DNA of 64,000 nucleotides from Pseudooceanicola sediminis (GTDB taxonomy: Bacteria > Pseudomonadota > Alphaproteobacteria > Rhodobacterales > Rhodobacteraceae): NCBI RefSeq assembly GCF_003575965.1, contig NZ_QWJJ01000001.1:124001-188000 (forward strand), in the 5' to 3' direction. Under the pieces are notes generated by a model, which worked only from the letters and a program-made list of their open reading frames with translations, had not been told where the DNA came from and did not search any database. Positions 4,683-21,009 of the stretch are shown here, piece by piece. Numbering within the stretch: the first letter of the stretch is position 1; each line of letters begins with the position of its first letter. The position numbers and the translations under genes are program-made.

Positions 4683-5717
4683 ATGACTATGTCCAAACGG
4701 CGCGCGTTCCTGCGCCTTGGGGCGGCGGCCCTAGCTGCGCCCGCGCTTCTGACGGCCGGAAAGGCCAGCGCTGCCGGCGCCACGAAATGGCGCATGCAGG
4801 CCCTCTGGGGCGGTGGCACCACGCCGATGAAATACGAGGAGATGTTTTGCGCGCGCGTCGCCGAGCTTACCGGCGGGTCGCTGGAAATCACCCCCTTCGC
4901 GGGTGGCCAGATCGTGCCCTCGGCGCAGGCCTTCGACGCTGTGCGCGGCGGCGCGTTCCAGATGATGAAGACCTTCGATGGCTATACCGCCGGCAAGATC
5001 CCCGCGCATGGCTTTTCGTCCACCGTGCCCTTCGGTTTCCCCGATCCCGACCAATACGAGGCATGGTTCTACGAACGTGGCGGGCTGGAGATGGCACGCG
5101 AAAGCTATGCCCCCGCGGGTCTGACCTACGTCGCGCCCACGGTCTATGGCCAGGAACCGATGCATTCGACCGTACCGATCCGCAAGATTGCAGACCTGAA
5201 CGGGCTGAAGGGGCGTTTCGTGGGCCTTGCGGCGGCTGTCATGGGTGATTTCGGCGTTGCCGTCTCTCCCCTGCCGACCTCCGAGGTCTATTCCGCCCTC
5301 GACAAGGGGCTGATCGAGGTTGCCGACCGGGGCGATATCAAGGCCAACTACGAAGAAGGTCTGCAAGAGGTCGCGAAATACCTGATCCTGCCCGGCGTCC
5401 ATCAGCCCACAACGGCAACCTCCTATGTCGCCAATACGCGGGCCTATGACGCGCTGGATGATCAGCAAAAGGCCGCCCTCGCCGTCGCTGCACGCGAGAT
5501 TTCCGGCAGCCTGCGCCAGAACATCATCGTATCGGACGGTGAATACCTCAAGAAATACCAGGACGCGGGCGTCGAGATCATCGATCTTGATACGGCGGAT
5601 ATTGCCGAGGCCCGCAATCAGGCCGTGGAATCTTGGAAGAAGGCTGCAACAGACGATCTGTCGACCCGCATGATGGAGTCCCAGATCGCCCTGATGCAAG
5701 AATTGCGCCTTCTCTGA
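4683..5717 (+). CDS. DctP-family TRAP solute-binding protein, candidate mevalonate binder
   Basis: 344 residues with a twin-arginine-like signal (SKRRAFLRLGAAALAAPALL, then ASAAG). The mature part shows the DctP fold signature: GGQIVPSAQAFDAVRGGAFQM, YVAPTVYGQEPMHSTVPIRKIADLNGLKGR, and TSEVYSALDKGLIEVADRG. A good GGAGG site lies 6 bases before the start. The gene is 24 bases after the HMG-CoA reductase gene and is followed by DctQ and DctM subunits. The substrate is inferred to be mevalonate (or a close precursor) from the two flanking HMG-CoA enzymes; the sequence itself does not prove this. Confidence 0.88.
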   Translation: MTMSKRRAFLRLGAAALAAPALLTAGKASAAGATKWRMQALWGGGTTPMKYEEMFCARVAELTGGSLEITPFAGGQIVPSAQAFDAVRGGAFQMMKTFDGYTAGKIPAHGFSSTVPFGFPDPDQYEAWFYERGGLEMARESYAPAGLTYVAPTVYGQEPMHSTVPIRKIADLNGLKGRFVGLAAAVMGDFGVAVSPLPTSEVYSALDKGLIEVADRGDIKANYEEGLQEVAKYLILPGVHQPTTATSYVANTRAYDALDDQQKAALAVAAREISGSLRQNIIVSDGEYLKKYQDAGVEIIDLDTADIAEARNQAVESWKKAATDDLSTRMMESQIALMQELRLL

Positions 5718-5773
5718 ATCCCCAAAAGACGCCGCACCTTGCGGGGCGCGGCGTCCTACCTGCGGAGCGTTCC

Positions 5774-6268
5774 ATGATCTTCCTGTGCCGGCGCATCACA
5801 GCGCTCAACCGTTTGCTGTTCACCGCAGCGAAATGGCTGGTCTATGCCATCGTCCTGATGATGCTGTGGGAGGTGCTGTCACGCTACCTCCTCAACAGCC
5901 CGACGTCCTGGGCGCCCGAGCTGGCCACCCTGACCTTTGGCCCCTATTTCCTGCTCGGCGGCCCCTACCTGCTGCACCTCGGCGGGCATGTCGCCGTTGA
6001 CGTCATTTCGGAAAAGGCGACGGGCGGATTCGCCGTCGCGCTGAAATTTGTCGGCCTGGCCCTTGCCGCCGTCACCGGCGCGATCCTGCTGTGGTTCAGC
6101 CTGCCTCTTGTCTGGCAATCCTTCAGCTATGGGGAAACCAGCTATTCCGCGTTCAACCCGGTGATCTGGCCCGCAAAGGCGTTTCTGCCGCTTGCCGCAT
6201 TGCTGCTGCTGCTCCAGGCGCTGGCCGATGTCGGACTGACCGTCTCTTCCCGAAAGGAAGGTGCATGA
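5774..6268 (+). CDS. TRAP transporter small permease (DctQ)
   Basis: 164-residue membrane protein with four predicted helices (around 15-35, 47-67, 83-107 and 129-150). It has the DctQ-type sequence LMMLWEVLSRYLLNSPTSWAPELATLTFGPYFLLGG followed by HLGGHVAVDVISEKA, which is the usual RYxxNxxxxWxxE...GHV pattern. The start was chosen at the ATG before the first hydrophobic segment, 56 bases after the binding-protein stop. Its stop overlaps the next start by 4 bases (ATGA), so it is translationally coupled to DctM. Confidence 0.9.
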   Translation: MIFLCRRITALNRLLFTAAKWLVYAIVLMMLWEVLSRYLLNSPTSWAPELATLTFGPYFLLGGPYLLHLGGHVAVDVISEKATGGFAVALKFVGLALAAVTGAILLWFSLPLVWQSFSYGETSYSAFNPVIWPAKAFLPLAALLLLLQALADVGLTVSSRKEGA

Positions 6269-7590
6269 TGGAAAGCACCCTGACCCTTGCCTTCATGTTC
6301 CTTTCCCTCATCGTCTTCATGCTCAGTGGGGCAGGCCTGGCCTTCGTGCTGGGCGCCATCGCCTTCATCTCGACCATCCTGCTCTGGGGGCCGGCCGCGC
6401 TCATCGTTGCGGTGCTGAACACGTTCGAGACGATGACATCGGAATCCCTGATGGCTATTCCGCTCTATGTGCTGATGGCTTCGATCTTGCAGAAATCCGC
6501 GATCATCGATGCGCTTTACGACGCCATGGAGACATGGTTCTCCGGCGTCAACGGCGGGCTGGCGGTCGGCACGATTGCCATCTGCACCCTGCTTGCCGCG
6601 ATGACGGGCGTTGTTGGCGCTGCCGTGGCCGCGATGGGTATCCTCGCCCTGCCCGCCATGCTGTCGCGTGGCTACTATCCGCCCCTGGCCCTCGGGGCGA
6701 TCTGCGCTGGCGGCACGCTCGGCATCCTCATCCCGCCGTCCGTCGTCACGATCGTCTACGCCATCACTGCGCAGATCTCGATCGGCAAGATGTTTGCCGC
6801 CGGTATCGTACCGGGCATCATCCTGGCCTCGGCCTATATTCTCTATATCCTGGTGCGGACCTGGCTGAATCCCGACCTGGCCCCGAAACCGGACCAAACT
6901 GTGCGGATCCCCCTGCGCGTCAAGCTGGCCAAGCTCAAGAGCCTGATCTTGCCTGCCTTCGTCGTGATCGGCGTTCTCGGCTCGATCTACGCTGGCATCG
7001 CCACCCCGACCGAGGCTGCGGCCGTCGGTGTGCTCGGTGCCGCGATCTCGGCCATCGTCACCCGGCGCCTGTCGCCCGCGATGCTCTCCGAGGCCGCAAC
7101 AGACACCCTGCGCGTCACCGCGATGATCCTTTGGATCACCATCGGCGCACGGGCCTTCATCTCGGTCTTCGTGGCCACGGGGGGCGCGGATTCCCTGCTC
7201 GGCTTTGTCGAAAATCTTGAGGCATCCCGGTGGCTGATCCTCGGGGTCATGGTGCTGGTGCTGGTGTTCCTCGGTCTGTTCCTGGATGAGATCGGGATCA
7301 TCCTGCTTTGCGTCCCGGTGTTCCTGCCAATCATCATCGCGCTGGATTTCGACCCGCTTTGGTTCGGCGTCCTGTTCATGATCACGGCGCAGATGGCCTA
7401 TATCACGCCGCCTTTCGGCTATACCTTGTTCTACCTGAAGGGGGTGCTTCCCGAAGGGATCGGGATCGGCCAGGTCTATCGTGGCGTCGTGCCCTTCTTC
7501 CTGATCCAGGTCCTGGTGCTGATCCTGTTCGCGATCTTTCCGGGTCTTGTCACCTGGCTGCCCGAAGCCCTGAACACCAATGCACGGTAA
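6265..7590 (+). CDS. TRAP transporter large permease (DctM)
   Basis: About 441 residues and about twelve hydrophobic segments, the normal size for the channel-forming DctM subunit of the ion transporter superfamily. Characteristic parts are MAIPLYVLMASILQKSAIIDALYDAMETW, GVVGAAVAAMGILALPAMLSRGYYPPLALGAICAGGTLGILIPPS, and FGVLFMITAQMAYITPPFGYTLFYLKGV. The start overlaps the DctQ stop; two adjacent ATG codons (6265, 6268) are both possible. It belongs to the presumed mevalonate uptake operon. Confidence 0.93.
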   Translation: MMESTLTLAFMFLSLIVFMLSGAGLAFVLGAIAFISTILLWGPAALIVAVLNTFETMTSESLMAIPLYVLMASILQKSAIIDALYDAMETWFSGVNGGLAVGTIAICTLLAAMTGVVGAAVAAMGILALPAMLSRGYYPPLALGAICAGGTLGILIPPSVVTIVYAITAQISIGKMFAAGIVPGIILASAYILYILVRTWLNPDLAPKPDQTVRIPLRVKLAKLKSLILPAFVVIGVLGSIYAGIATPTEAAAVGVLGAAISAIVTRRLSPAMLSEAATDTLRVTAMILWITIGARAFISVFVATGGADSLLGFVENLEASRWLILGVMVLVLVFLGLFLDEIGIILLCVPVFLPIIIALDFDPLWFGVLFMITAQMAYITPPFGYTLFYLKGVLPEGIGIGQVYRGVVPFFLIQVLVLILFAIFPGLVTWLPEALNTNAR

Positions 7591-7594
7591 TCCC

Positions 7595-8449
7595 ATGTCC
7601 GACACCATCACGGTTTTCGAGGTCGGCCCCCGCGACGGTTTGCAAAGCCTTGGGGTGCAGGTTGCAACTGCGACGAAAATCGCCCTGATCGACGCGCTCG
7701 CCCGGGCCGGCTTGCGCAAGATCGAGGCGACCAGCTTTGTCAGCCCGCGCTGGGTGCCCCAGATGGCGGATGCAGGCGACGTGATGGCCGGGATCAATCG
7801 CCAGCAGGGTGTCACCTATGCCGCCCTGACCCCGAATGAACGCGGCCTTGACCTCGCACTGGCCGCAGGCTGTGATGAAATCGCGATCTTCGCCTCCGCC
7901 TCCGAAGGGTTCAGTCACGCCAACCTGAACTGTTCGATCGAGGAAAGCTTTGCCCGTTTCGCCCCGGTGATGCAGCGCAGTGCCGAAGCAGGTCTGCCGG
8001 TGCGCGGCTATCTCTCCGCGGTGATCGCCTGCCCCTACGATGGGCCGACGCCGCCCGCGCAGGTGCACCGCTGGGCGGAAAGACTGCTTGAGATCGGCTG
8101 TTACGAGGTTTCCCTGGGCGACACCATCGGCGCCGGCACGCCGGATACGCTCGGCAACGTACTGAAACCGCTCCTGCACGACATTCCGGCAGATCGATTG
8201 GCGGGACACTTTCATGACACCAATGGATTGGCCGGTGATTTGGTCGTGCGCGCGCTCGACCTCGGTCTGCGCACCTTCGACGCCTCCGTCGGCGGTCTGG
8301 GTGGTTGCCCATACGCGCCCGGCGCACCCGGCAACATAGATACCCGCAAGGTGCTGGAATGCGCGGCCGCGCTGGGGTTCTCTCATGGTGTGGATCTTGC
8401 TCTGCTGGGCGACGCCGAACAAATAGCGATGTCCATCGCGGCACGGTGA
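7595..8449 (+). CDS. mvaB: Hydroxymethylglutaryl-CoA lyase
   Basis: 284 residues. Cleaves HMG-CoA to acetoacetate and acetyl-CoA. The N-terminal FEVGPRDGLQ (catalytic Arg13/Asp14), the ATSFVSPRWVPQMADA motif, GHFHDTNGLA (metal-binding His pair) and GGLGGCPYAPGAPGN (the glycine loop with the active-site cysteine) are all present. The size is normal. I start at ATG 7595 (MSDTIT); an upstream in-frame ATG at 7580 would overlap the DctM stop. Placed last in the operon, it completes the route from mevalonate through HMG-CoA to acetyl-CoA and acetoacetate. Confidence 0.92.
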   Translation: MSDTITVFEVGPRDGLQSLGVQVATATKIALIDALARAGLRKIEATSFVSPRWVPQMADAGDVMAGINRQQGVTYAALTPNERGLDLALAAGCDEIAIFASASEGFSHANLNCSIEESFARFAPVMQRSAEAGLPVRGYLSAVIACPYDGPTPPAQVHRWAERLLEIGCYEVSLGDTIGAGTPDTLGNVLKPLLHDIPADRLAGHFHDTNGLAGDLVVRALDLGLRTFDASVGGLGGCPYAPGAPGNIDTRKVLECAAALGFSHGVDLALLGDAEQIAMSIAAR

Positions 8450-8644
8450 TGACACGTCGCGCATCGCGTGACGGCGTGTCGCCGCTTGGACAGACCAAGG
8501 ACGACACCCGCGGCTTTTGCCAGTGGCAGACGCGATGCCCTGCATCAAGCAACAGGTTCACTGACATGGCCGATGCACGCGCTGCCCGATACCCCCGGGC
8601 CGCCGCAGGATTTCAAATGTGCCAGACCTTACGGCTTGCACCCT

Positions 8645-9175
8645 CTACCGCAGGAACGAGGATAGCATCAGGATGATCGCCACGAACAAACCCGACATCG
8701 TCGGATAGAATGTGAGCGCAAATCCAAAGGCCCGATGCCGCGCGGGTCGTCCGATGCCCATGGCAAATCCGATCCGACCGACCACGAAGGCAAGCGAAAA
8801 GAGCGGCAGAACCCCGATCCAGTCGGCTGACAGCCCGAATGCCAGGGCGGGATAGACCATCGCGGCAAGCAGCGCCTGCTCGACCGTGTTGCTCAAATAG
8901 GCATGGGCCCGGGCCAGCCTGATATCGTCGGGTGGGTTCTGCCCATCGATTGCAGTGTCGTGCAGAAAGCGATGCCGTGCGACAAAGCCGACACCTGCCG
9001 CCAGCGCACTCCCCGGGCCGAGCAACGCACCGCCGAGAATCCACAGACGCCCGCCGACGCCTGCATCCTGCGCCGGAATGCCCCATGCGACGACCCAGAG
9101 AGCAACCACGCTGACGCAGGCATACGCCATTCCGGTTGCAACGCCGCGTTGTTCATCACTCAGCCCCATCTGCAT
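8645..9175 (-). CDS. MAPEG-family integral membrane protein
   Basis: About 176 residues with several hydrophobic helices. The segment ARAHAYLSNTVEQALLAAMVYPALAFG matches the MAPEG signature (R..A...N..EQ...A). MAPEG proteins include glutathione transferases and peroxidases, but many bacterial members have no known substrate. An earlier TTG (9238) would add 21 polar residues; the ATG pair at 9175/9169 lies closer to the first hydrophobic segment. No functional link to the neighbours is apparent. Confidence 0.72.
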   Translation of the reverse strand: MQMGLSDEQRGVATGMAYACVSVVALWVVAWGIPAQDAGVGGRLWILGGALLGPGSALAAGVGFVARHRFLHDTAIDGQNPPDDIRLARAHAYLSNTVEQALLAAMVYPALAFGLSADWIGVLPLFSLAFVVGRIGFAMGIGRPARHRAFGFALTFYPTMSGLFVAIILMLSSFLR

Positions 9176-9373
9176 CTCGTCGGTCCGTGTCGGTTGAACG
9201 TGTCGCTCCAGCCTGCTCTTCAATGTGTGCGGTTGCAACAGCGCCAGACATGTGCCCCGAATCCTGGCATTGCCGCCGAAATCTCGCCACGGTTCAGCGT
9301 CGAAATTCGGCCTGACGTTCGCCCTGTTGCAGGGCCATCTTTCAGGCGACCCAGTTCAATCCGATGGGGCGTG

Positions 9374-10312
9374 TCATTGGCCAGCCGCGCCGTCACCTCG
9401 TTCTGCTCTGCGCCCTGCCGCAACACGATCCAAGACGCGTCCGTCAATCGCCAACAGGCCGATGCTGATCAGAAGCATTCCGAAATAGTGGCGCCGCGCC
9501 AGATCCTCCCCCAGTACGAACGTGCCCAGCAAGATCGCGCTGACCGGCACCAGAAGCGTGACCAGACCAACATTTACCGCCCCGGCAGACGCAAGAATGC
9601 GGAAAAAGATGACATAGGCCAGGGCCGTTGAAACGATGGCCAGCGCAAGGATCGCCACAATCACTGGCGTACCAGGCATTGGCAGCTTCCAGGGCTGGTC
9701 AATGATCGATACGATCGGCGCCATCATCAGGGTGGTCGCGCTCAGCTGCCCGAATGCAACTTGCGTGGCCGTCAGCTGCATCGCCTTGAACCTGCGCCCG
9801 TAGACGCTGGCGAAACCATATGACAGCGCCGCCCCGAGACACGCCAGTATTCCCAGCGATGCGATGCTGGCTCCGCCAAGCAGATCGCCGCCAAGCAAGA
9901 CGATCACACCCAGGAAACCGAACAGGATTCCGACCGCCTTGTTCGCCGCCATACGTTCATCCATCAGCAGGAAATGCGCCACGATGATGGAAAAGATCGG
10001 TGTCGATGCGTTCAGGATCGAGGCCAGACCACTTGGGATCATCGTCTGCGCCCAGAACAACAGGCTGAATGGCATCAGGTTGTTCAGTAACCCCATGACA
10101 AAGAACGGCAGCAGGACACCCCTGGCAAAGGGCCACCGTTCTGCGCGCAGCCACAGGATCAGGGCGAGGGTCAGCGCGGCCAATCCGGCCCGCAGGCCGA
10201 CGATGGTCAGCGGCGGAAGCTGCTGAATGGCCACGCCCACGAAAAAGAACGAACCTCCCCACAACAGGGACAACAGAAAAAGGAACGACCAGTCCCGTGG
10301 TGTCATGCGCAT
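9374..10312 (-). CDS. EamA/DMT-superfamily transporter
   Basis: 312 residues and ten hydrophobic segments in two repeats of five, the normal architecture for drug/metabolite exporters of the EamA type. Typical pieces are SLLWGGSFFFVGVAI near the start, MPFSLLFWAQTMIPSGLASILNASTPIFSIIVAHFLLMDE at the end of repeat one, and AGAVNVGLVTLLVPVSAILLGTFVLGED in repeat two. The substrate is unknown. It is divergent from an Ada-type regulator with 128 bases between them. Confidence 0.9.
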   Translation of the reverse strand: MRMTPRDWSFLFLLSLLWGGSFFFVGVAIQQLPPLTIVGLRAGLAALTLALILWLRAERWPFARGVLLPFFVMGLLNNLMPFSLLFWAQTMIPSGLASILNASTPIFSIIVAHFLLMDERMAANKAVGILFGFLGVIVLLGGDLLGGASIASLGILACLGAALSYGFASVYGRRFKAMQLTATQVAFGQLSATTLMMAPIVSIIDQPWKLPMPGTPVIVAILALAIVSTALAYVIFFRILASAGAVNVGLVTLLVPVSAILLGTFVLGEDLARRHYFGMLLISIGLLAIDGRVLDRVAAGRRAERGDGAAGQ

Positions 10313-10440
10313 CCGATATATCCAAATTGCGGTTGTATGCCCCGACAGCTACAGCCTCGCCCGCCCGGGCACTCGCCCTTTTCGGACCTCATCATCTGTC
10401 CATGCTCGCAAAAATGCGATTTCGTCCCTAATCTTCCGAC

Positions 10441-11001
10441 ATGCTTGATTTCGACACATGCAACGAAGCACGACTGAGGCGCGATCCGGCGTTTGACGGA
10501 AAGTTCTTCACGGCCGTTCGCACCACGATGATCTACTGTCGCCCCGTTTGCCCGGTAAAGCACCCGCTGACCAGGAACGTCAGCTATTTTGCCACTGCGG
10601 CGGCCGCAGAACAGGCCGGATATCGCCCCTGCCTGCGGTGCCGCCCGGAAACGGCGCCGTTCTGCGCGGCATGGAAAGGAACGCAGACCACGGTAGAGCG
10701 CGCCCTGAAGCTGATCGAAGATGGCGCGCTGGACACCGGCTCTGTCGGCGCGCTGGCGGATCGTCTGGGGGTCGGCGCACGGCACCTGTCGCGCCTCTTC
10801 GCGGAACATGTCGGCGCCTCGCCCCTTCAGACCGCGCAAACGCTGCGCATCGGGCGGGCAAAACGCCTTCTGGACGAAACGACGCTGCCGATCACCGACA
10901 TTGCGTTCAGATCGGGTTTCGGCAGCGTCAGACGCTTCAACACGGTGTTTCAGACCCTCTATGGCCGCCCGCCCTCCTCGATCCGCAGGCCGAAACGATG
11001 A
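10441..11001 (+). CDS. Ada-type regulator: methylphosphotriester-sensing domain + AraC HTH, no methyltransferase domain
   Basis: 186 residues. Residues 1-70 form the Ada zinc domain with four cysteines (Cys33, Cys37, Cys64, Cys67) in IYCRPVCPVK and YRPCLRCRP; the first would accept a methyl group from DNA phosphotriesters. Residues about 85-180 are an AraC-type double HTH (LADRLGVGARHLSRLFAEHVGASPLQ, ITDIAFRSGFGSVRRFNTVF). The C-terminal O6-methylguanine methyltransferase domain of E. coli Ada is absent, so it resembles the AdaA type. It probably controls alkylation repair genes outside the window, since none are adjacent. Confidence 0.88.
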   Translation: MLDFDTCNEARLRRDPAFDGKFFTAVRTTMIYCRPVCPVKHPLTRNVSYFATAAAAEQAGYRPCLRCRPETAPFCAAWKGTQTTVERALKLIEDGALDTGSVGALADRLGVGARHLSRLFAEHVGASPLQTAQTLRIGRAKRLLDETTLPITDIAFRSGFGSVRRFNTVFQTLYGRPPSSIRRPKR

Positions 11002-14245: not shown

Positions 14246-15007
14246 CTAGACCTCGATGAAATCACAGCCGCTTTCCTCGCCGGCGGCCTTCAGACCCTGT
14301 GACAACGGGCCTCCGCAAATTGTTCGTTCCAGGTCATGCACCCGGCCCCAGCGGTGTGGCGCCGTTCGGCCGATCTTGGCGTGATCGATCACCAGTGTGC
14401 GTTCTCTTGCGCAGGCGGAAATCGCCTGGCGCGCGCGGATCTCGTCCAGATTGAAATCCAGCAGGTCTCCGGTCTCGGACACGCCTCCGACGGAAAAGAC
14501 GGCGTGATCAAAGCGCAGCCCGTCGAAAAACTCGCGGCTTTCCGCGCCAATCAGATCGAGATCGCGCAAGCGCACCTTGCCCCCTGCCAACAGGATGGTG
14601 ATGTCCTCGGCCATGCGCAGCGCCAGAACCACGTGGATGTTGTTGGTGGCGACCGTCAGGCCTTCGTGCCCGACCAGGGCGCGCGCCACGGCTTCGACCG
14701 TGGTGCCGGTTCCCAGGGCGACCGTGGCGCCGTTCGGAATCATGCCGGCGACCGCGGCGGCAATCCTGTTCTTTTCCTGCCGGGACACGGCCAGGCGCGG
14801 CTGATAGTCGATGTTCTCTCCCGCGGCGAGGCTGGCCCCGCCGTGACGGCGCTTGACGATATGCGAGTCGTCCAGCGCGCGCAGGTCGGATCTCAGCGTC
14901 TGGACCGTCACCCCCAACATCTCGGACAAGGCCGATGCAGAGAGCTCTCCGTAACTGGACAGCAGGTTGACGATCCGGTCACGACGTCGCGCGGCTTCGC
15001 TGGGCAT
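14246..15007 (-). CDS. DeoR/GlpR-family transcriptional repressor
   Basis: 253 residues. The N-terminal DeoR HTH reads RRDRIVNLLSSYGELSASALSEMLGVTVQTLRSDLRAL, followed by the wing KRRHGGAS. The C-terminal sensor domain shows GATVALGTGTTVEAVARAL, LTVATNNIHVV and FDHAVFSVGGVSETGDLLDFNLDE, the phosphosugar-isomerase-like fold that in this family usually binds phosphorylated sugars or polyols. It is divergent from the six-gene ABC/phosphatase operon with about 190 bases between. It is therefore the likely repressor of that operon, which suggests a phosphorylated inducer. Confidence 0.9.
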   Translation of the reverse strand: MPSEAARRRDRIVNLLSSYGELSASALSEMLGVTVQTLRSDLRALDDSHIVKRRHGGASLAAGENIDYQPRLAVSRQEKNRIAAAVAGMIPNGATVALGTGTTVEAVARALVGHEGLTVATNNIHVVLALRMAEDITILLAGGKVRLRDLDLIGAESREFFDGLRFDHAVFSVGGVSETGDLLDFNLDEIRARQAISACARERTLVIDHAKIGRTAPHRWGRVHDLERTICGGPLSQGLKAAGEESGCDFIEV

Positions 15008-15198
15008 GATTTTCGCTCGAACCTAGTTGCTCCGCCTCAAAACTACATCGGGTCCTCCGCAAACTCAACAAAATCGCCGGAAAATAAAAATATCCCCTTG
15101 TTGTAGAACTGTCATGTGAAGCCGCTACCAAGCCTCCAAGAGAGACGAATCGAGATTCTGATCTTTCGAACGAAAATGCACCTTAGCAGGAGACTCCG

Positions 15199-16170
15199 AT
15201 GTCCCGTTCCCTTCTGGCCGCTACCCTCGCCCTGACGCTTCCGACCCTGGCGGGCGCCGAAACCCTGACGCTCTATACGTCGCAACCCAACGAGGATGCG
15301 CAGCAGACCGTGGATGCGTTCATCGCCGCCAACCCCGGAATCGAGGTCGATTGGGTGCGCGATGGCACGACCAAGCTGATGGCACGTCTGACCGCCGAGA
15401 TCGAGGCCGGTCAACCGCAGGCCGATGTGCTGCTGATCGCAGACACCGTCACCCTCGAAGGTCTGGCGCAGGCGGGTCAGCTGGCCGCCTATGCCTCGCC
15501 CGAGGAAGCGGCCTACGACCCCTCGCTCTACAGCGCGGACGGGTACTATCATTCGACCAAATTGATCACCACGGGCATCGTCTACAACACCGGCGCAGAC
15601 GCCGTGCCGACCTCCTGGGCCGATCTTGCCAAGCCCGAGATGGCGAACCTCGTCGCCATGCCGTCGCCGCTCTATTCCGGCGCCGCCCTGATCCACCTCG
15701 CGACGCTGACCGAAACCGATGGCCTGGGCTGGGAGTATTACAAGGCCCTCGCAGACAACAACACGCGCGCCGAAGGCGGCAACGGCGGCACCTTCAAGGC
15801 CGTCGCATCGGGTGAAAAACCCTATGGTGTGCTGGTCGACTACATGGCGGTGCGCGCCAAGGCCGAAGGCTCGCCCGTCGACTTCGTCTTCCCGACCGAG
15901 GGCGTGTCCTACGTGACCGAACCCGTCGCGATCATGGCAGGCACCAGGCACATGGATGCCGCCGAAAAGTTCGTCGATTTCGTCCTCAGCGAAAAGGGAC
16001 AGGATCTCGTGGTCGACATGGGCTATATCCCCGCGCGCAACGGCGTGGCCAGCCCCGAGGGGTTCCCGGCACGTGACGACATCAAGCTGATGGCCTTCGA
16101 CCCCGCCAAGGCACTGGCAGACACCGACACCAACAAGGCCCGCTTTGCAGAGGTGTTCGGCGTCCAATGA
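15199..16170 (+). CDS. ABC transporter periplasmic binding protein, FbpA/AfuA-like
   Basis: 323 residues with a Sec signal (MSRSLLAATLALTLPTLAGA). The mature part begins ETLTLYTSQPNEDAQQTVDAFIAANPGIEVDWVRDGTTKLMARL, typical of the group that includes Fe3+ binders (FbpA), AfuA hexose-phosphate binders and aminoethylphosphonate binders. The twin-tyrosine iron site of FbpA is not obvious near the C-terminus. Together with the DeoR regulator and three phosphatase-like genes, a phosphorylated organic ligand seems more likely than iron. An AGGAGA site precedes the ATG; the stop overlaps the permease start (ATGA). Confidence 0.85.
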   Translation: MSRSLLAATLALTLPTLAGAETLTLYTSQPNEDAQQTVDAFIAANPGIEVDWVRDGTTKLMARLTAEIEAGQPQADVLLIADTVTLEGLAQAGQLAAYASPEEAAYDPSLYSADGYYHSTKLITTGIVYNTGADAVPTSWADLAKPEMANLVAMPSPLYSGAALIHLATLTETDGLGWEYYKALADNNTRAEGGNGGTFKAVASGEKPYGVLVDYMAVRAKAEGSPVDFVFPTEGVSYVTEPVAIMAGTRHMDAAEKFVDFVLSEKGQDLVVDMGYIPARNGVASPEGFPARDDIKLMAFDPAKALADTDTNKARFAEVFGVQ

Positions 16171-17873
16171 AAACGCCCGCTTTCGCCAAGGGTGGCAGCC
16201 GGTCCCTGGACCGGCTGTTGCCGCTTATCCTGCTGCCGGTGGCGCTGATCGCGCTCGGCCCTGTCGTGCGCCTGTTGCTTGAGGGGATCGGGTTTGGCGA
16301 CGGCCTGACCTCGGCGCATCTGGCGACGGTTCTGTCGCGGCCCTCGACCGGCACCGCCCTGCTGCACTCCCTGATCACCGCCGGCGGCGGGACGGTCCTG
16401 TCGGTCCTGATCGGCGCCAGCTTTGCTTTTCTGGTCGCGCTGACGGATATCCGGGGCAAGGGGGCGCTGGTGTTCTGCCTGATGGTCCCGATGATGATCC
16501 CGCCGCAGATCACGGCGCTGGCCTGGATGCAGATGGCCGGTCCGTCCTCGACCTTGCTGAAGGTGTTGGGGCTTGCGCCGCCCCTTGGCAGCCCGCAACC
16601 CTTGCATTCGCCCGGTGGCATCATCCTGTTGCTGGGCATTCAGCACGCGTCGCTGGTGTTCCTGACCCTGCGGGCCGGCCTGCGCATGATCCCCGCCGAT
16701 CTGGTCGAGGCCGCACGCATGTCCGGCGCCGGGTCGCTGCGCGTCTGGGCGCAAACCGTGCTGCCATTGTCGATGCCTTCGCTGATTGCCGGCGGTGCGA
16801 TGGCCTTTGTCACTGCCCTGGGCAATTTCGGAATTCTCGCCATGCTGGGCATACCGGCAGGCTACGCGACGCTGCCGACGCTGATCTACCAGCGCCTTGT
16901 CGGCATGGGCCCGTCTGTCCTGCCCGAGGTTGCGGTGCTGTCGCTGCTGATCGGGGCCGTTGCAATCCTGGGTATCCTGGTCAGCCGTTATGTTCTGTCG
17001 CGCAAGGGGTTCGGGCTGGTCGGCCTGTCCGGCAACCCCCTGGCATTGTCGCTCGGGCGGGGACGCGGGGCGGTGGAAATCCTGCTCTGGGGCTTCATCT
17101 TCGTGATCCTCGGCCTGCCGTTGTTCGCCCTTCTGGCGACCTCGCTCATCCCGGCCTACGGCGTACCACTGACCTTTGCCTCCGCCACCTTCGATGCGTG
17201 GAAAGAGGTGCTTTTCATTCAGCCCGGCACGCGGCGCGCCTATGGCAACTCGCTGATGCTCGCGACCTCCGCGGCGGCGATCCTGCTGGTGATCAGCCTG
17301 CCGCTGGCCTGGCTGATGGAGCGTCGCGCCAACCGTCTCAGCCGTCTTCTGGATGCGCTGATCGACCTGCCCTATGCCCTGCCGGGCGTTGTCCTGTCGA
17401 TCGCCTGCATCCTGACCTTTCTGAACCTGCCCTTCACCGACATGACGCTGTACGGCACGATCTGGATCATCCTGCTGGCCTACCTGGCGCGATTTTTCGT
17501 GGTGATGCTGCGCCCGATCCAGGCCAGCATCGCGCAGCTGGATCCGGCGATGGAGGAGGCCGCGGCCAGTGTCGGCGCGCGCCTGTCGCGGCGTCTGCGC
17601 GATATCGTTCTGCCGCTCGCGGCCCCGTCTGCGGCCGCCGGGGCGATCCTGGTTTTCCTGACGGCGGTCAATGAACTGACCGTGTCGGCGCTGCTCTGGT
17701 CCTCCGGCACCGAAACGCTGGGCGTCGTCATCTACAACCTCGAAGACAGCGGCGAAACCGTCATGGCCTCGGCCCTGGCGATGTCCATCGTGCTTCTCAT
17801 CGTCATGCTCATGGGGCTGGTTCAGGCCGGGGCAAAGCGTTTTCCAAAAGGTGTCATCCCATGGCAGAGCTGA
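16167..17873 (+). CDS. ABC transporter fused permease (FbpB/ThiP-like)
   Basis: 568 residues and about twelve membrane segments, a head-to-tail fusion of two permease modules. Each half carries an EAA loop for the ATPase: EAARMSGAGSLRVWAQTVLPLSMPSL (about residue 181) and EEAAASVGARLSRRLRDIVLPLAAPSA (about residue 463). Fused permeases of this layout occur in Fe3+, thiamine and AfuB-type sugar-phosphate importers. Its start overlaps the binding-protein stop by 4 bases and its end overlaps the ATPase gene by 13, so the three subunits are tightly coupled. Confidence 0.92.
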   Translation: MKTPAFAKGGSRSLDRLLPLILLPVALIALGPVVRLLLEGIGFGDGLTSAHLATVLSRPSTGTALLHSLITAGGGTVLSVLIGASFAFLVALTDIRGKGALVFCLMVPMMIPPQITALAWMQMAGPSSTLLKVLGLAPPLGSPQPLHSPGGIILLLGIQHASLVFLTLRAGLRMIPADLVEAARMSGAGSLRVWAQTVLPLSMPSLIAGGAMAFVTALGNFGILAMLGIPAGYATLPTLIYQRLVGMGPSVLPEVAVLSLLIGAVAILGILVSRYVLSRKGFGLVGLSGNPLALSLGRGRGAVEILLWGFIFVILGLPLFALLATSLIPAYGVPLTFASATFDAWKEVLFIQPGTRRAYGNSLMLATSAAAILLVISLPLAWLMERRANRLSRLLDALIDLPYALPGVVLSIACILTFLNLPFTDMTLYGTIWIILLAYLARFFVVMLRPIQASIAQLDPAMEEAAASVGARLSRRLRDIVLPLAAPSAAAGAILVFLTAVNELTVSALLWSSGTETLGVVIYNLEDSGETVMASALAMSIVLLIVMLMGLVQAGAKRFPKGVIPWQS

Positions 17874-18937
17874 GCTTTTCCAACCTCTCCAAGCAGTTCG
17901 ACGGTGTTGCCGCGCTGGACAGCATCAATGCGCAGATCACGTCGGGGGAATTCGTCGCGCTGCTGGGGCCGTCGGGCTGTGGCAAGACGACGTTGCTGCG
18001 CCTGACGGCGGGCTTTGAACACCCAAGCGCGGGCGAGATCCAGATCGGCGGTCACACGGTGGCCGGTGCGGGCCAGTTCGTCCCGCCGGAGGATCGCGGC
18101 GTCGGCATCGTCTTTCAATCCTACGCGCTTTGGCCGCACAAGAGCGTTTACGCAAACGTCGCCTACCCGCTTGAGGTGCGCCGCGTGCCACGCGCCGAAC
18201 GTCAGGCGCGCGTGGCCGAGGCGCTGTCCCTGACGGGCCTCAGCGACCTGGCGCAACGGATGCCGTCGCAATTGTCCGGCGGTCAGCGCCAGCGCGTCGC
18301 CCTGGCCCGTTGCCTGGTGTTCGACCCGCGCGCCGTTCTTCTGGACGAACCGCTTGCCAACCTCGACCTCGCTCTGCGCGCCTCGATGCAGGAGGTGTTC
18401 TCGATGTTCCACCGCCGCACGGGCGCCACCATGCTCTACGTCACCCATGATCAGGGCGAGGCGCTTGCCCTGGCCGACCGGGTTGCGGTGATGGCGGCGG
18501 GCAGGATCCGGCAATTCGCCGCGCCCGAGGTGTTGTACCGCGAACCCGTGGATTGCTTTGTCGCGGGGTTTGTCGGGGACGGTGCCGTGGTCTCGGCCCG
18601 CTGCACCGGACAGACCGACGGGGCCCGGCTGGTGCTGAATGTCCTTGGGCAGGAGGTCCTGTCGCGCAGCGCCACGCCCGAGCCGAGCCACGTCAGCATC
18701 CGCCCCGAGTCGATTGCGATCAGCGAAGATGCGCCGTTGCGCGCGCGCGTGACCGGCTGCACCTACCTCGGCGGGCAATTCCGCCTGACGTTGGACACCG
18801 CCGGCGAAACCCTTGTCGCCTTCGCCCGCCAGCGCGCCCGCATCGGCGAAACCGTCGGCATCAGGCTTCAGGATCTCTGGGCGTTCCGCGATCCTGGCGG
18901 CGTGATCACGATGCAGCGGGCGCTGGCCCATGCCTGA
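17861..18937 (+). CDS. ABC transporter ATP-binding protein
   Basis: 358 residues. Walker A is GPSGCGKTTLLRLTAG, the Q-loop is in VFQSYALWPHKSV, the signature LSGGQRQRVALARCLVFDPRAVLLDEP includes Walker B, and the H-loop is YVTHDQGEALALADR. The C-terminal 120 residues form a TOBE-type regulatory domain (ESIAISEDAPLRARVTGCTYLGGQFRLTLDT). This is the CUT1/Fe3+-type ATPase expected to energise the two preceding gene products. It overlaps the next gene by 8 bases. Confidence 0.94.
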   Translation: MAELSFSNLSKQFDGVAALDSINAQITSGEFVALLGPSGCGKTTLLRLTAGFEHPSAGEIQIGGHTVAGAGQFVPPEDRGVGIVFQSYALWPHKSVYANVAYPLEVRRVPRAERQARVAEALSLTGLSDLAQRMPSQLSGGQRQRVALARCLVFDPRAVLLDEPLANLDLALRASMQEVFSMFHRRTGATMLYVTHDQGEALALADRVAVMAAGRIRQFAAPEVLYREPVDCFVAGFVGDGAVVSARCTGQTDGARLVLNVLGQEVLSRSATPEPSHVSIRPESIAISEDAPLRARVTGCTYLGGQFRLTLDTAGETLVAFARQRARIGETVGIRLQDLWAFRDPGGVITMQRALAHA

Positions 18938-20015
18938 CAACAGCCATCGGACCGCCCCCTGGATCGAGGTTCTGTCGGGGCTTGGTGAAAAGGGCCCGGC
19001 CTGCATCCGTCTGTGGACGGGTCAGGCCCTGTGGGTGCTGGACGTGGGCGTCGGGCCAGAAGCCACCTCGCCCTTCAACCCCGCCTGGATCGAGGGCGCG
19101 CAGCGCGTGTTCATCACCCATGATCATATCGACCACATCGGCGGTGCCGCCCATGCGGTCACCGCCGGCTTGCCGATCCATTGCACCGCCCAGACCGCCC
19201 GCGCGCTGCCGCCCGGCAGCAACGTCGTGGCCTTGCCTGAAAATGGCCGCAGCGTCATCGACGGCGTCCGTGTGACCACGGGGCGCAATGGCCATGCGTT
19301 GGGCGGCGTCTGGCTTCATTTCGATCTCGGGGACGGCCTGTTCTTTTCCGGTGACTGGTCCGAGGAAAGCACCTGGTTCGCCTTTGATCCGCCGCCCCGT
19401 GCAAAGACGGCATTGATCGATTCCTCCTACCACCTTGATGACATCGCCCAGTCACAGCGCATCTTGGCGCTCGATCAGATGCTCCTTGCACATCAGGATC
19501 GGCAGATCCTGTTTCCGGTGCCGCCCTCGGGCCGCGCTGGCGAACTGGCGCTGCACCTGATGCGGCACGGCGCGGTCAGCCTCGACGACAGTTGCCGCAG
19601 GGCGGTTGACCGAGCACTGCACAGCGGCAGCCTCAGCAGCGCGGCACAGCTGCTTGCGCCGCTGCTGGATCGCGGCTTTGACCCGGACGCACGCTTTCTG
19701 CTCTGCGACACGCCGAACGCGGATGCCGGCATGGCGGCCCAATTGGTGCGCGACTGGCATGACGATGGCCGGCTGGGACGGCAGGCGATGGTGCTGTTCA
19801 CGGGGCATATGACGGCCCATGCGCGGGTCATCGCAGCCGAAGGCGGGCAATTTCTGCGCTGGAACGTCCATCCCCCGCTGTCGGATCAGATCGCGATGGT
19901 GCGCCGTCTGGATGCACACCGCTACGCGCCGCTGTTTTGCTCCCAACCCGAGGATTACCTGCTCGAACCGCGCTTTCAGGCGGATCTCGTGCTGAACGAA
20001 AGGTGCCTGTTGTGA
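18930..20015 (+). CDS. MBL-fold metallo-hydrolase (beta-CASP-like C-terminus), probable phosphodiesterase
   Basis: 361 residues. The metal site motif THDHIDHIGG carries His64, His66, Asp68 and His69. A later histidine is in GRNGHALGGVW and an aspartate in FFSGDWSEE. The C-terminal half, with MVLFTGHMTAHARVIAAEGGQFLRWNVHPPLSDQ and PLFCSQPED, is reminiscent of the extra motifs of beta-CASP or RNase Z-type members that act on phosphodiesters. No signal peptide, so it should act on an imported compound. It overlaps the ATPase gene by 8 bases. The exact substrate is unknown. Confidence 0.75.
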   Translation: MPDNSHRTAPWIEVLSGLGEKGPACIRLWTGQALWVLDVGVGPEATSPFNPAWIEGAQRVFITHDHIDHIGGAAHAVTAGLPIHCTAQTARALPPGSNVVALPENGRSVIDGVRVTTGRNGHALGGVWLHFDLGDGLFFSGDWSEESTWFAFDPPPRAKTALIDSSYHLDDIAQSQRILALDQMLLAHQDRQILFPVPPSGRAGELALHLMRHGAVSLDDSCRRAVDRALHSGSLSSAAQLLAPLLDRGFDPDARFLLCDTPNADAGMAAQLVRDWHDDGRLGRQAMVLFTGHMTAHARVIAAEGGQFLRWNVHPPLSDQIAMVRRLDAHRYAPLFCSQPEDYLLEPRFQADLVLNERCLL

Positions 20016-20575
20016 CGCTGCGCGCCCGGCCCTTCGTGCTGATCCGCCATGGCCAGACGGATGCCAACCGCGACCATCTTGTCGCGGGCCGCACCGAGGC
20101 ACAGTTGACACAGGTGGGCCGCCGCGCCGCGCAGGCGCTGTCGGGTTGGGAATGGCCCGCCGATACGATGCTATTCGTCAGTCCCCAGCAGCGGGCGCGC
20201 GAAACGGCCCGCCTGGCCTTTCCGCATCACAGCCCGGTTCTGCTCGAGGGGTTGCGCGAACGTGATTGGGGGCTTCTGGAAGGCCGCCCGGTGTCCCAGC
20301 TCCTGCCGCGCGATCAGACGCCCGAGCAGGGAGAGGCCTGGCCAGACATGATCGGTCGGGTTTGCGCCGCGATTGCGGTCGCGCAGGATGCCGCGGCCGG
20401 TCGCCTGCCTGTCTGCGTCGCCCATTCGGGCGTCATCAGGGCCGCGCGCCACCTGACCGGCGGGGCCGCCGACGGTCCCTCGCCCGCAAACACCACCCCC
20501 TACCTGTTTTCCCCCACCCCCGAGGGCTGGCGTGAAACCCTGCTGGAACAGAAAGACACCCGATGGATTGCGTGA
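20012..20575 (+). CDS. Histidine phosphatase superfamily protein
   Basis: 187 residues with a GTG start that overlaps the MBL stop (GTGA). The phosphoenzyme motif is FVLIRHGQTDANRDHLVAGRTEAQLTQVGRRQ-like near the start (Arg12, His13, Gly14), with a second-site arginine in SPQQRARETARLAF. A late histidine is present in VCVAHSGVIRA. This is the phosphoglycerate mutase-like fold that removes a phosphate from small molecules. It is cytoplasmic and would remove a terminal phosphate after MBL cleavage, if the operon acts as a pathway. Confidence 0.85.
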   Translation: MTLRARPFVLIRHGQTDANRDHLVAGRTEAQLTQVGRRAAQALSGWEWPADTMLFVSPQQRARETARLAFPHHSPVLLEGLRERDWGLLEGRPVSQLLPRDQTPEQGEAWPDMIGRVCAAIAVAQDAAAGRLPVCVAHSGVIRAARHLTGGAADGPSPANTTPYLFSPTPEGWRETLLEQKDTRWIA

Positions 20576-21009
20576 TTTTCGATATCGATGGCACCTTGGC
20601 CGAATTTGACGCTGATCGTCTGGGCCATCTGGTGCATGGCGCGGTCAAGCACTGGCAAATCTTTCACGAAGAGATGGCCTCCGCCGCGCTGATCGCCCCC
20701 GTCGCACGGCTGTTGCACACGCTCAGGGCGCAGGGCAATGCGGTCGTGTTGTGTTCAGGGCGCCCCGATGGGTGGCGGTCCCATACCGCGAAATGGCTCG
20801 AACAAATGGAAATTCCCTATGACGCGCTCTATCTGCGCCGCCGCGACGAAGATGGCGCCAGCGATCCGGAGGTAAAGCGCAGCGCGCTCGACCGGATACG
20901 CGCCGACGGGTATCAGCCCTGGCTTGTCGTCGATGACAGAAGCGCCGTCGTCGCCTTCTGGCGCGAGGCCGGACTGACCTGCCTGCAATGCGCCGCGGGG
21001 GATTTCTGA
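20563..21009 (+). CDS. HAD-superfamily phosphatase (PNKP 3'-phosphatase-like)
   Basis: 148 residues, one compact HAD domain. Motif I is VIFDIDGTLAEF (nucleophile Asp7, acid Asp9), motif II lies in AVVLCSGRPDGWRSHT, and the motif IV acidic pair is in WLVVDDRSAVVAFWREAGL. The pattern SGRP...W...Y...LY.R...D resembles the phosphatase domain of polynucleotide kinase/phosphatase-like HAD proteins. It overlaps the histidine phosphatase gene by 13 bases and is the last gene of the operon. The substrate is unknown. Confidence 0.85.
   Translation: MDCVIFDIDGTLAEFDADRLGHLVHGAVKHWQIFHEEMASAALIAPVARLLHTLRAQGNAVVLCSGRPDGWRSHTAKWLEQMEIPYDALYLRRRDEDGASDPEVKRSALDRIRADGYQPWLVVDDRSAVVAFWREAGLTCLQCAAGDF

Follow-up and report, generated by a model that had tools for sequence, protein, structure and literature searches.

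The window analyzed here is a 64,000-nucleotide stretch of DNA from Pseudooceanicola sediminis (contig NZ_QWJJ01000001.1, positions 124,001 to 188,000). It contains a cassette of seven genes: a DeoR-family repressor gene and, divergent from it, genes for an ABC importer (substrate-binding protein [SBP], fused double permease, and ATPase), a metallo-beta-lactamase (MBL) protein, a histidine phosphatase (HP), and a HAD phosphatase (Table 1). Gene starts were placed by homology. A preliminary description of this DNA had reported the seven genes in this place and order, six of them overlapping by 4-13 bases, and the coordinates and family matches confirmed this arrangement. The overlaps are 4 bp (16167-16170), 13 bp (17861-17873), 8 bp (18930-18937), 4 bp (20012-20015), and 13 bp (20563-20575). 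The DeoR protein is not a GlpR member; its nearest NCBIfam model, GlpR (PRK10906), gave 176 bits (cut-off 331).

Table 1. Genes and candidate promoter sites of the cassette (positions in the window)
Feature	Position	Strand	Basis or remark
DeoR-family repressor, 253 aa, divergent	14246..15007	-	DeoRC 1.9e-39, HTH_DeoR 7.6e-11
Operator-like site TTTTCGCTCGAA	15010..15021		just before regulator start
Weak Pho-box-like site TTGTTGTAGAACTGTCAT	15098..15115	+	3/14 positions off; 101 nt before SBP start
Palindromic operator-like site TTTCGAACGAAA	15164..15175		24-35 bases before SBP start
SBP, FbpA/AepX-like, 323 aa	15199..16170	+	SBP_bac_8/11/6/1 matches
Fused double permease, 568 aa	16167..17873	+	two BPD_transp_1 stretches
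ATPase, 358 aa	17861..18937	+	ABC_tran + TOBE_2
MBL, short beta-CASP type (predicted), 361 aa	18930..20015	+	conserved columns, hhalign
HP branch 1, 187 aa from GTG 20012	20012..20575	+	His_Phos_1 1.8e-24; RHG present
HAD phosphatase, PNKP type, 148 aa	20563..21009	+	HAD_PNKP 7.5e-28

The cassette is portable and widespread in bacteria. A search of named genomes with the MBL revealed at least 66 loci: 60 (L009-L068) carry SBP, permease, and ATPase genes beside the MBL gene, and the remaining six (L069-L074) are weak, distant matches. An MBL relative was found in 70 of 72,556 plasmid records (Phaeobacter, Paracoccus, Azospirillum, Aminobacter, Enterobacter, and others). At an E-value of 1e-35 or better, 24 of 394 family genomes and 17 of 398 phylum genomes gave a match; 31 of 385 class genomes did so at 1e-15 or better, 8 of these at 1e-90 or better. 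Distribution among the nearest relatives was patchy (MBL match at 1e-3 in 8 of 61 genomes); besides the genome of the window, three of the eight had close MBLs (90, 70, and 62% identity). The order of the cassette was kept in relatives whose MBL and SBP were only ~35% and ~56-62% identical, respectively (L076, L090, L174-L176; some without HP or HAD). Because the same order is kept in such diverged relatives, the gene set reflects more than chance. The gene set was not described in any title or abstract start among the literature matches listed.

For quantitative comparison, 119 MBL loci, not including that of the window, were reduced to 104 groups at 97% identity. The MBL was the criterion for choosing these 104 loci. 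Since partner genes were sought by blast against a small number of reference proteins, divergent partners may be missed. The whole importer, MBL, and a phosphatase occurred together in 98 of them. The importer was complete in 100 loci, was represented by permease and SBP only in 3, and lay at a contig edge in 1. Regulators were of the DeoR (62 loci), SorC (8), or LacI (7) family, and none was found in 27. Four arrangements were recognized (PERM, permease; ATP, ATPase; DSP, dual-specificity phosphatase): DeoR/SBP-PERM-ATP-MBL-HP-HAD (DeoR type), ATP-MBL-HP-SBP-PERM (type II), LacI/ATP-SBP-PERM-MBL-DSP (DSP type), and SorC/SBP-PERM-ATP-MBL-SurE (SurE type). Trees of MBL and SBP built from the same 63 rows had 33 of 60 splits in common (mean 0.15 and maximum 2 in 300 shuffles), and both recovered the same four type clades (29, 11, 11, and 8 rows). 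The agreement of the two trees indicates that importer and MBL were inherited together while phosphatase and regulator were exchanged. This argues for a single chemical step, phosphate removal, as the one that matters.

Three observations concern individual loci and their neighbors. The cassette of L076 (SBP-permease-ATPase-MBL-HP) lies at 5201-10604 on the conjugative multi-replicon plasmid p48880_VIM_4 of Enterobacter hormaechei, with an IS5-family transposase gene just upstream and an IS1-family one ~7 kb downstream; a DeoR or HAD relative was looked for beside it and none was found. The ~720-aa frames of L159 and L160 were considered as a fusion protein and rejected, the MBL being the C-terminal part and the rest reading as an open GC-rich frame. 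A look for substrate clues among the non-core frames, covering their 45 largest groups, gave none; what recurred there was, judged by position, antisense to or overlapping core genes, or Thalassospira synteny.

Four unrelated phosphatase folds occupy the same place in the cassette. HP and HAD occurred together in 57 of the 104 loci, HP alone in 20, HAD alone in 3, DSP in 10, and SurE in 8 (one of which also has HP, on the other strand); 6 loci had none. Each type keeps its catalytic motif (RHG in 77/78 HP, DxDGT in 60/60 HAD, HCxxGxxR in 10/10 DSP, and NDDG in 8/8 SurE proteins), which supports the earlier proposal that hydrolysis follows import. The further proposal of stepwise dephosphorylation by three hydrolases in series was rejected, since the full triple is restricted to the 57 loci and elsewhere HP or HAD may stand alone or give way to another phosphatase. 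Because of the loci with HP or HAD alone, and of whole clades with DSP or SurE instead, HP and HAD look redundant and may be alternatives for one dephosphorylation. The window HAD protein passed the HAD_PNKP model (PF25109) with 97.9 bits (cut-off 27.6), and its structural relatives are 4xrp, 5uj0, and 1ltq. The DSP proteins reached Pfam models only near or below cut-off. In three of the eight SurE-type cassettes (L087, L089, L195), a Na/Pi-cotransporter-like gene adjoins the cassette or lies within ~4 kb of it; its product might handle released phosphate.

The window MBL matched Pfam Lactamase_B_2 weakly (28.4 bits, cut-off 27), and a single-sequence search gave weak matches to archaeal CPSF proteins (best E 1.4e-8). 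Pfam Beta-Casp (PF10996) matched one of 17 diverse MBL members at E up to 1 and did not match the window protein. When the MBL profile was compared by hhalign with two alphaproteobacterial beta-CASP proteins that score above cut-off for both Beta-Casp and RMMBL, the result was 99.2% with an E-value of 1.2e-19 over 301 columns. Invariant or nearly invariant columns in the 17 members were HxHxDH 64-69, H122, D142, D164, P196/P198/G201/R202, and H314. Beta-CASP proteins are nucleases that cut nucleic-acid phosphodiesters, and they are marked by HxHxDH, a motif A acidic residue before SY, and a PxxxxGR segment. Corresponding motifs were present in the MBL loci: HxHxDH in 104/104, D[ACS]SY in 102/104, and P.P..G[RK] in 98/104. 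On this family relationship we classify the MBL as a short beta-CASP-type protein with predicted nuclease-like chemistry. Four of the 17 MBLs (three beside SurE, plus L007) have His (GHS) where beta-CASP motif C lies, and the others have Phe.

Two kinds of conserved site were found in the promoter regions. The palindrome TTTCGNNCGAAA, with up to one mismatch and less than 60 nt from the SBP start, was present in 56 of 62 DeoR loci vs. 2 of 289 control upstream regions. Two of the 17 HP loci lacking a regulator (a set made up of 11 type II and 6 DeoR-clade loci) had the palindrome, and so did 0/10 DSP, 0/8 SurE, and 0/30 loci of importer relatives lacking MBL (noMBL loci; see below). With up to two mismatches, a setting for which there is no control, it also occurred less than 60 nt from the regulator start in 57 of 62 DeoR loci. 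The genome has 12 exact TTTCGNNCGAAA sites; that of the window at 15164-15175 is among them and is the sole one with an AA/TT center. This site before the SBP gene is a new prediction and likely the DeoR operator.

The second kind of site resembles the Pho box, whose consensus is CTGTCAYN4CTGTCAY. Sites on the + strand at -125 to -60 with at most 3 of 14 mismatches to this consensus were counted as Pho-box-like; the counts supersede lower ones from an earlier scan with a slightly different consensus. Such sites, also a new finding, occur in part of every cassette type: 28/62 DeoR loci, 7/11 type II loci (before SBP), 5/10 DSP loci (before ATP, the first gene), and 3/8 SurE loci, vs. 5/289 controls. 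Before the first gene ATP of type II, 7/11 loci had a site with up to three mismatches, only 1/11 within -125 to -60. The six DeoR-clade HP loci with no regulator found had sites in 5/6 cases before SBP and 0/6 before the internal ATP, and the internal SBP of the DSP type had 0/10. The counts are not independent because of species kinship; after thinning of SBPs to <80% identity they were 7/13 (DeoR), 7/11 (mixed HP set), and 7/13 (noMBL). The site in the window shares its position with a two-mismatch site of the relative L009. In the same genome, the motif precedes a PstS-like gene (133 bits, cut-off 207) whose neighbor encodes a PhoR-like kinase (310 bits, cut-off 334), and Pho-box-like sites precede ugpB (554 bits, cut-off 411). 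The presence of these sites points to phosphorus scavenging.

The specificity of the importer was assessed from its relatives. The nearest NCBIfam models were phnS2 (TIGR03261) for the SBP (147 bits, cut-off 392.75), PhnU2 for the permease (149, cut-off 593.25), and PhnT2 for the ATPase (303, cut-off 457.7; a tie with PotA), all below cut-off; TIGR03261/03262/03265 are the NCBIfam equivalog models of the 2-aminoethylphosphonate importer AepXVW. Closest solved relatives of the SBP include AfuA and P5PA, and many solved relatives are iron-binding proteins. FbpA-type iron binding proteins carry an adjacent tyrosine pair. With its position placed through structure 1y4t, the pair was found neither in the window SBP nor in 98 of 103 SBPs compared (the other 5 were unread). 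The preliminary description had suggested an organophosphate and not iron as the cargo. Absence of the tyrosine pair and the presence of Pho-box-like sites in part of all four types support this view.

Taken together, we consider it rather probable that the cassette encodes a phosphorus-scavenging importer, controlled by PhoB and DeoR, for a small phosphate ester, probably a diester, that is captured, imported, cleaved by the MBL, and dephosphorylated. This proposal builds on the gene set, its conservation, the phosphatase exchange, the conserved promoter sites, and the beta-CASP relationship shown above; we infer the ligand class, the order of steps, the effector, and the action of PhoB. During phosphate shortage, PhoB would activate the promoter, as the sites suggest, and the DeoR protein would repress it from the paired operators. 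The ligand captured by the SBP would be a small organophosphate, a phosphodiester containing a sugar or glycerol moiety being the most likely candidate, and the fused permease and ATPase would carry it into the cell. The beta-CASP MBL would then cleave the diester in the cytoplasm, and the monoester released may lift DeoR repression, as AccR (see below) and the DeoR family, a family of regulators that sense sugar phosphates, suggest. HP or HAD, as alternatives, would dephosphorylate the monoester to phosphate and a usable sugar or nucleoside.

A related arrangement is the acc operon of Agrobacterium Ti plasmids (AccR, AccABCDE, AccF, AccG), which according to the available part of its description likewise combines a DeoR-family repressor, an ABC importer, a phosphodiesterase, and a putative phosphatase (PMC4526662). 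The AccR effector is described there as arabinose-2-phosphate released by the phosphodiesterase AccF (PMC4526662). The operon carries agrocinopines, and that part of the source does not mention phosphate starvation (PMC4526662). By analogy, the acc operon may be regarded as a conceptual precedent for the cassette. Its importer and phosphodiesterase belong to other families than those of the cassette.

More tentatively, the cassette may be dedicated to taking up RNA breakdown products (2',3'-cyclic nucleotides, 3'-nucleotides, very short oligonucleotides) as phosphorus source, with a beta-CASP nuclease-like enzyme as the diesterase of the importer and interchangeable end-phosphatases finishing the process. 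This possibility is suggested by the phosphatase families, which elsewhere act on nucleotides or nucleic-acid ends: PNKP-type HAD and SurE 5'/3'-nucleotidase and, as weaker support, PTP-SAK-like dual-specificity and CobC-like histidine phosphatases.

Several findings weigh against a phosphodiester-scavenging role. No phosphatase was found in 6 of the 104 MBL loci (one at a contig edge). A reverse search of the 394 family genomes detected the SBP in 57, namely all 24 that have the MBL and 33 with no MBL match at 1e-35. The expectation that hydrolases and transporter are conserved together was borne out among the loci selected by MBL; the reverse search gave a mixed picture because of those 33 genomes. 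In none of the 33 noMBL loci did comparison with the reference HP, HAD, DSP, and SurE phosphatases reveal a relative. In the SBP tree, 27 of 29 noMBL SBPs form one clade that is nested among the MBL clades, its exact place having low support. Pho-box-like sites were also present in 16 of 30 noMBL loci; the SBP ligand therefore need not be a diester, and since the importer is able to work without MBL, it could be a monoester. The Pho-box-like site of the window is weak (three mismatches) and not significant alone, and Phaeobacter sp. MED193 (L027) has no such site with up to three mismatches. Across the genome, the motif with up to two mismatches gave 103 sites vs. 51 for a reversed control, and inspection by eye placed neither of the two perfect Pho-box sites of the genome (L245, L246) at a known phosphate gene. 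Motif C of the MBL is not His in 13 of the 17 aligned members.

The noMBL loci (named cases: Falsirhodobacter, Sulfitobacter S190, Phyllobacterium, and Duffyella) consist mostly of SBP-PERM and a convergent ATPase gene. Of the 33, L212, L232, L234, and L235 (short or broken) were excluded from the SBP tree and 30 entered the promoter count; L236 is a distant row and L204 falls inside the DeoR clade. L078 and L079 were absent from this tree comparison because they were not in its search set. On Phyllobacterium plasmids (L238, L242, L243), genes for a second importer, a LacI regulator, and a calcineurin-like phosphodiesterase adjoin a noMBL importer in back-to-back arrangement. The second importer and phosphodiesterase were rejected as a substrate clue, being found in only 3 of 40 noMBL loci, all Phyllobacterium; a relative of the phosphodiesterase also occurs in 2 of 123 MBL loci (L015, L191). 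A Bacillota importer relative (41% SBP identity) lies on an Aerococcus tenax plasmid (L241, 6848-12222) beside genes for a HAD phosphatase and a fructose-6-phosphate aldolase.

An AfuABC-like importer of phosphomonoesters (sugar phosphates), in which the MBL acts on the sugar part, for example as a lactonase-like enzyme, and the phosphatase frees phosphate, is possible, if doubtful. Monoester-binding AfuA and P5PA are among the closest solved SBP relatives, the phosphatase is nearly constant, the regulators are of sugar type, and the noMBL clade manages without MBL. However, AfuA His205, Asp206, and Glu229 (sugar residues given in the available part of PMC4546632) align in a profile alignment with Tyr215, Met216, and Glu234 of the window SBP, so that only Glu is kept; the MBL aligns with beta-CASP proteins over 301 columns, and no lactonase family was found among the MBL matches. 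An importer related to AepXVW that carries aminophosphonates, with the hydrolases acting on phosphonate-derived products and the MBL in a PhnP-like role, is unlikely. It would agree with the best NCBIfam matches and with PhnP being an MBL phosphodiesterase; however, all three matches are far under cut-off. In the plasmid loci that carry annotation, none of the genes beside the cassette is labeled as coding for a phosphonate-degrading enzyme, no search aimed at such enzymes having been made; a phosphonate permease gene, phnE, lies ~5 kb from the cassette in Nitratireductor. According to the available text of PMC8316502, AepXVW typically adjoins phnWX or phnWAY. An FbpABC-type ferric iron importer with hydrolases adjacent by chance, as the many iron-binding SBP relatives and the naming of the permease as an iron permease by annotation pipelines might suggest, is very improbable and was rejected on the SBP residues and promoter sites described above, the phosphatases moreover being conserved.

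The proposed phosphodiester importer resembles several known systems and differs from each. AepXVW (phnS2/PhnT2/PhnU2) is the nearest named family for SBP and permease; its partners, in the available text, are phosphonate-degrading enzymes (PMC8316502), whereas those of the cassette are MBL and phosphatases. AfuABC (hexose-phosphate) and P5PAB (pyridoxal-phosphate) have FbpA-like SBPs that bind phosphate esters and not iron; the available portions of the two reports mention no MBL or phosphatase partner (PMC4546632, PMC8427247), and the AfuA specificity residues are not kept in the window SBP. UgpBAEC (glycerol-phosphate) and GpxB (glycerol-1-phosphate) take up organophosphates in the same bacterial group and, as far as the available part of PMC12718374 describes them, belong to other importer families; GpxB, considered as a possible match to the cassette, was rejected because it belongs to the PhnD/PhnT family. 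The source of the characterized GpxB and UgpB, Roseobacter sp. MED193 (L027; taken as the Phaeobacter sp. MED193 of the available part of PMC12718374), carries the cassette and is thus a tractable host; HP is present there and HAD was not found. Beta-CASP nucleases and PNKP-type phosphatases share domain families with the MBL and HAD proteins of the cassette, which differ in that they are short and stand-alone and are linked with a nutrient importer, not with RNA or DNA processing.

If the proposal is true, marine and soil bacteria, as well as some clinical plasmids, would carry an importer whose annotation as an iron uptake system hides a route for organophosphates that is controlled by phosphate starvation. 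The occurrence of four unrelated phosphatase folds and three regulator families around one importer and MBL amounts to a natural experiment, and the exchange of phosphatase and regulator narrows the chemistry to "phosphate ester in, phosphate off". To our knowledge, the beta-CASP group has so far been known from RNA and DNA processing; a nutritional role for it could follow. The ligand is directly testable in laboratory strains with the cassette, such as Phaeobacter inhibens and Phaeobacter sp. MED193.

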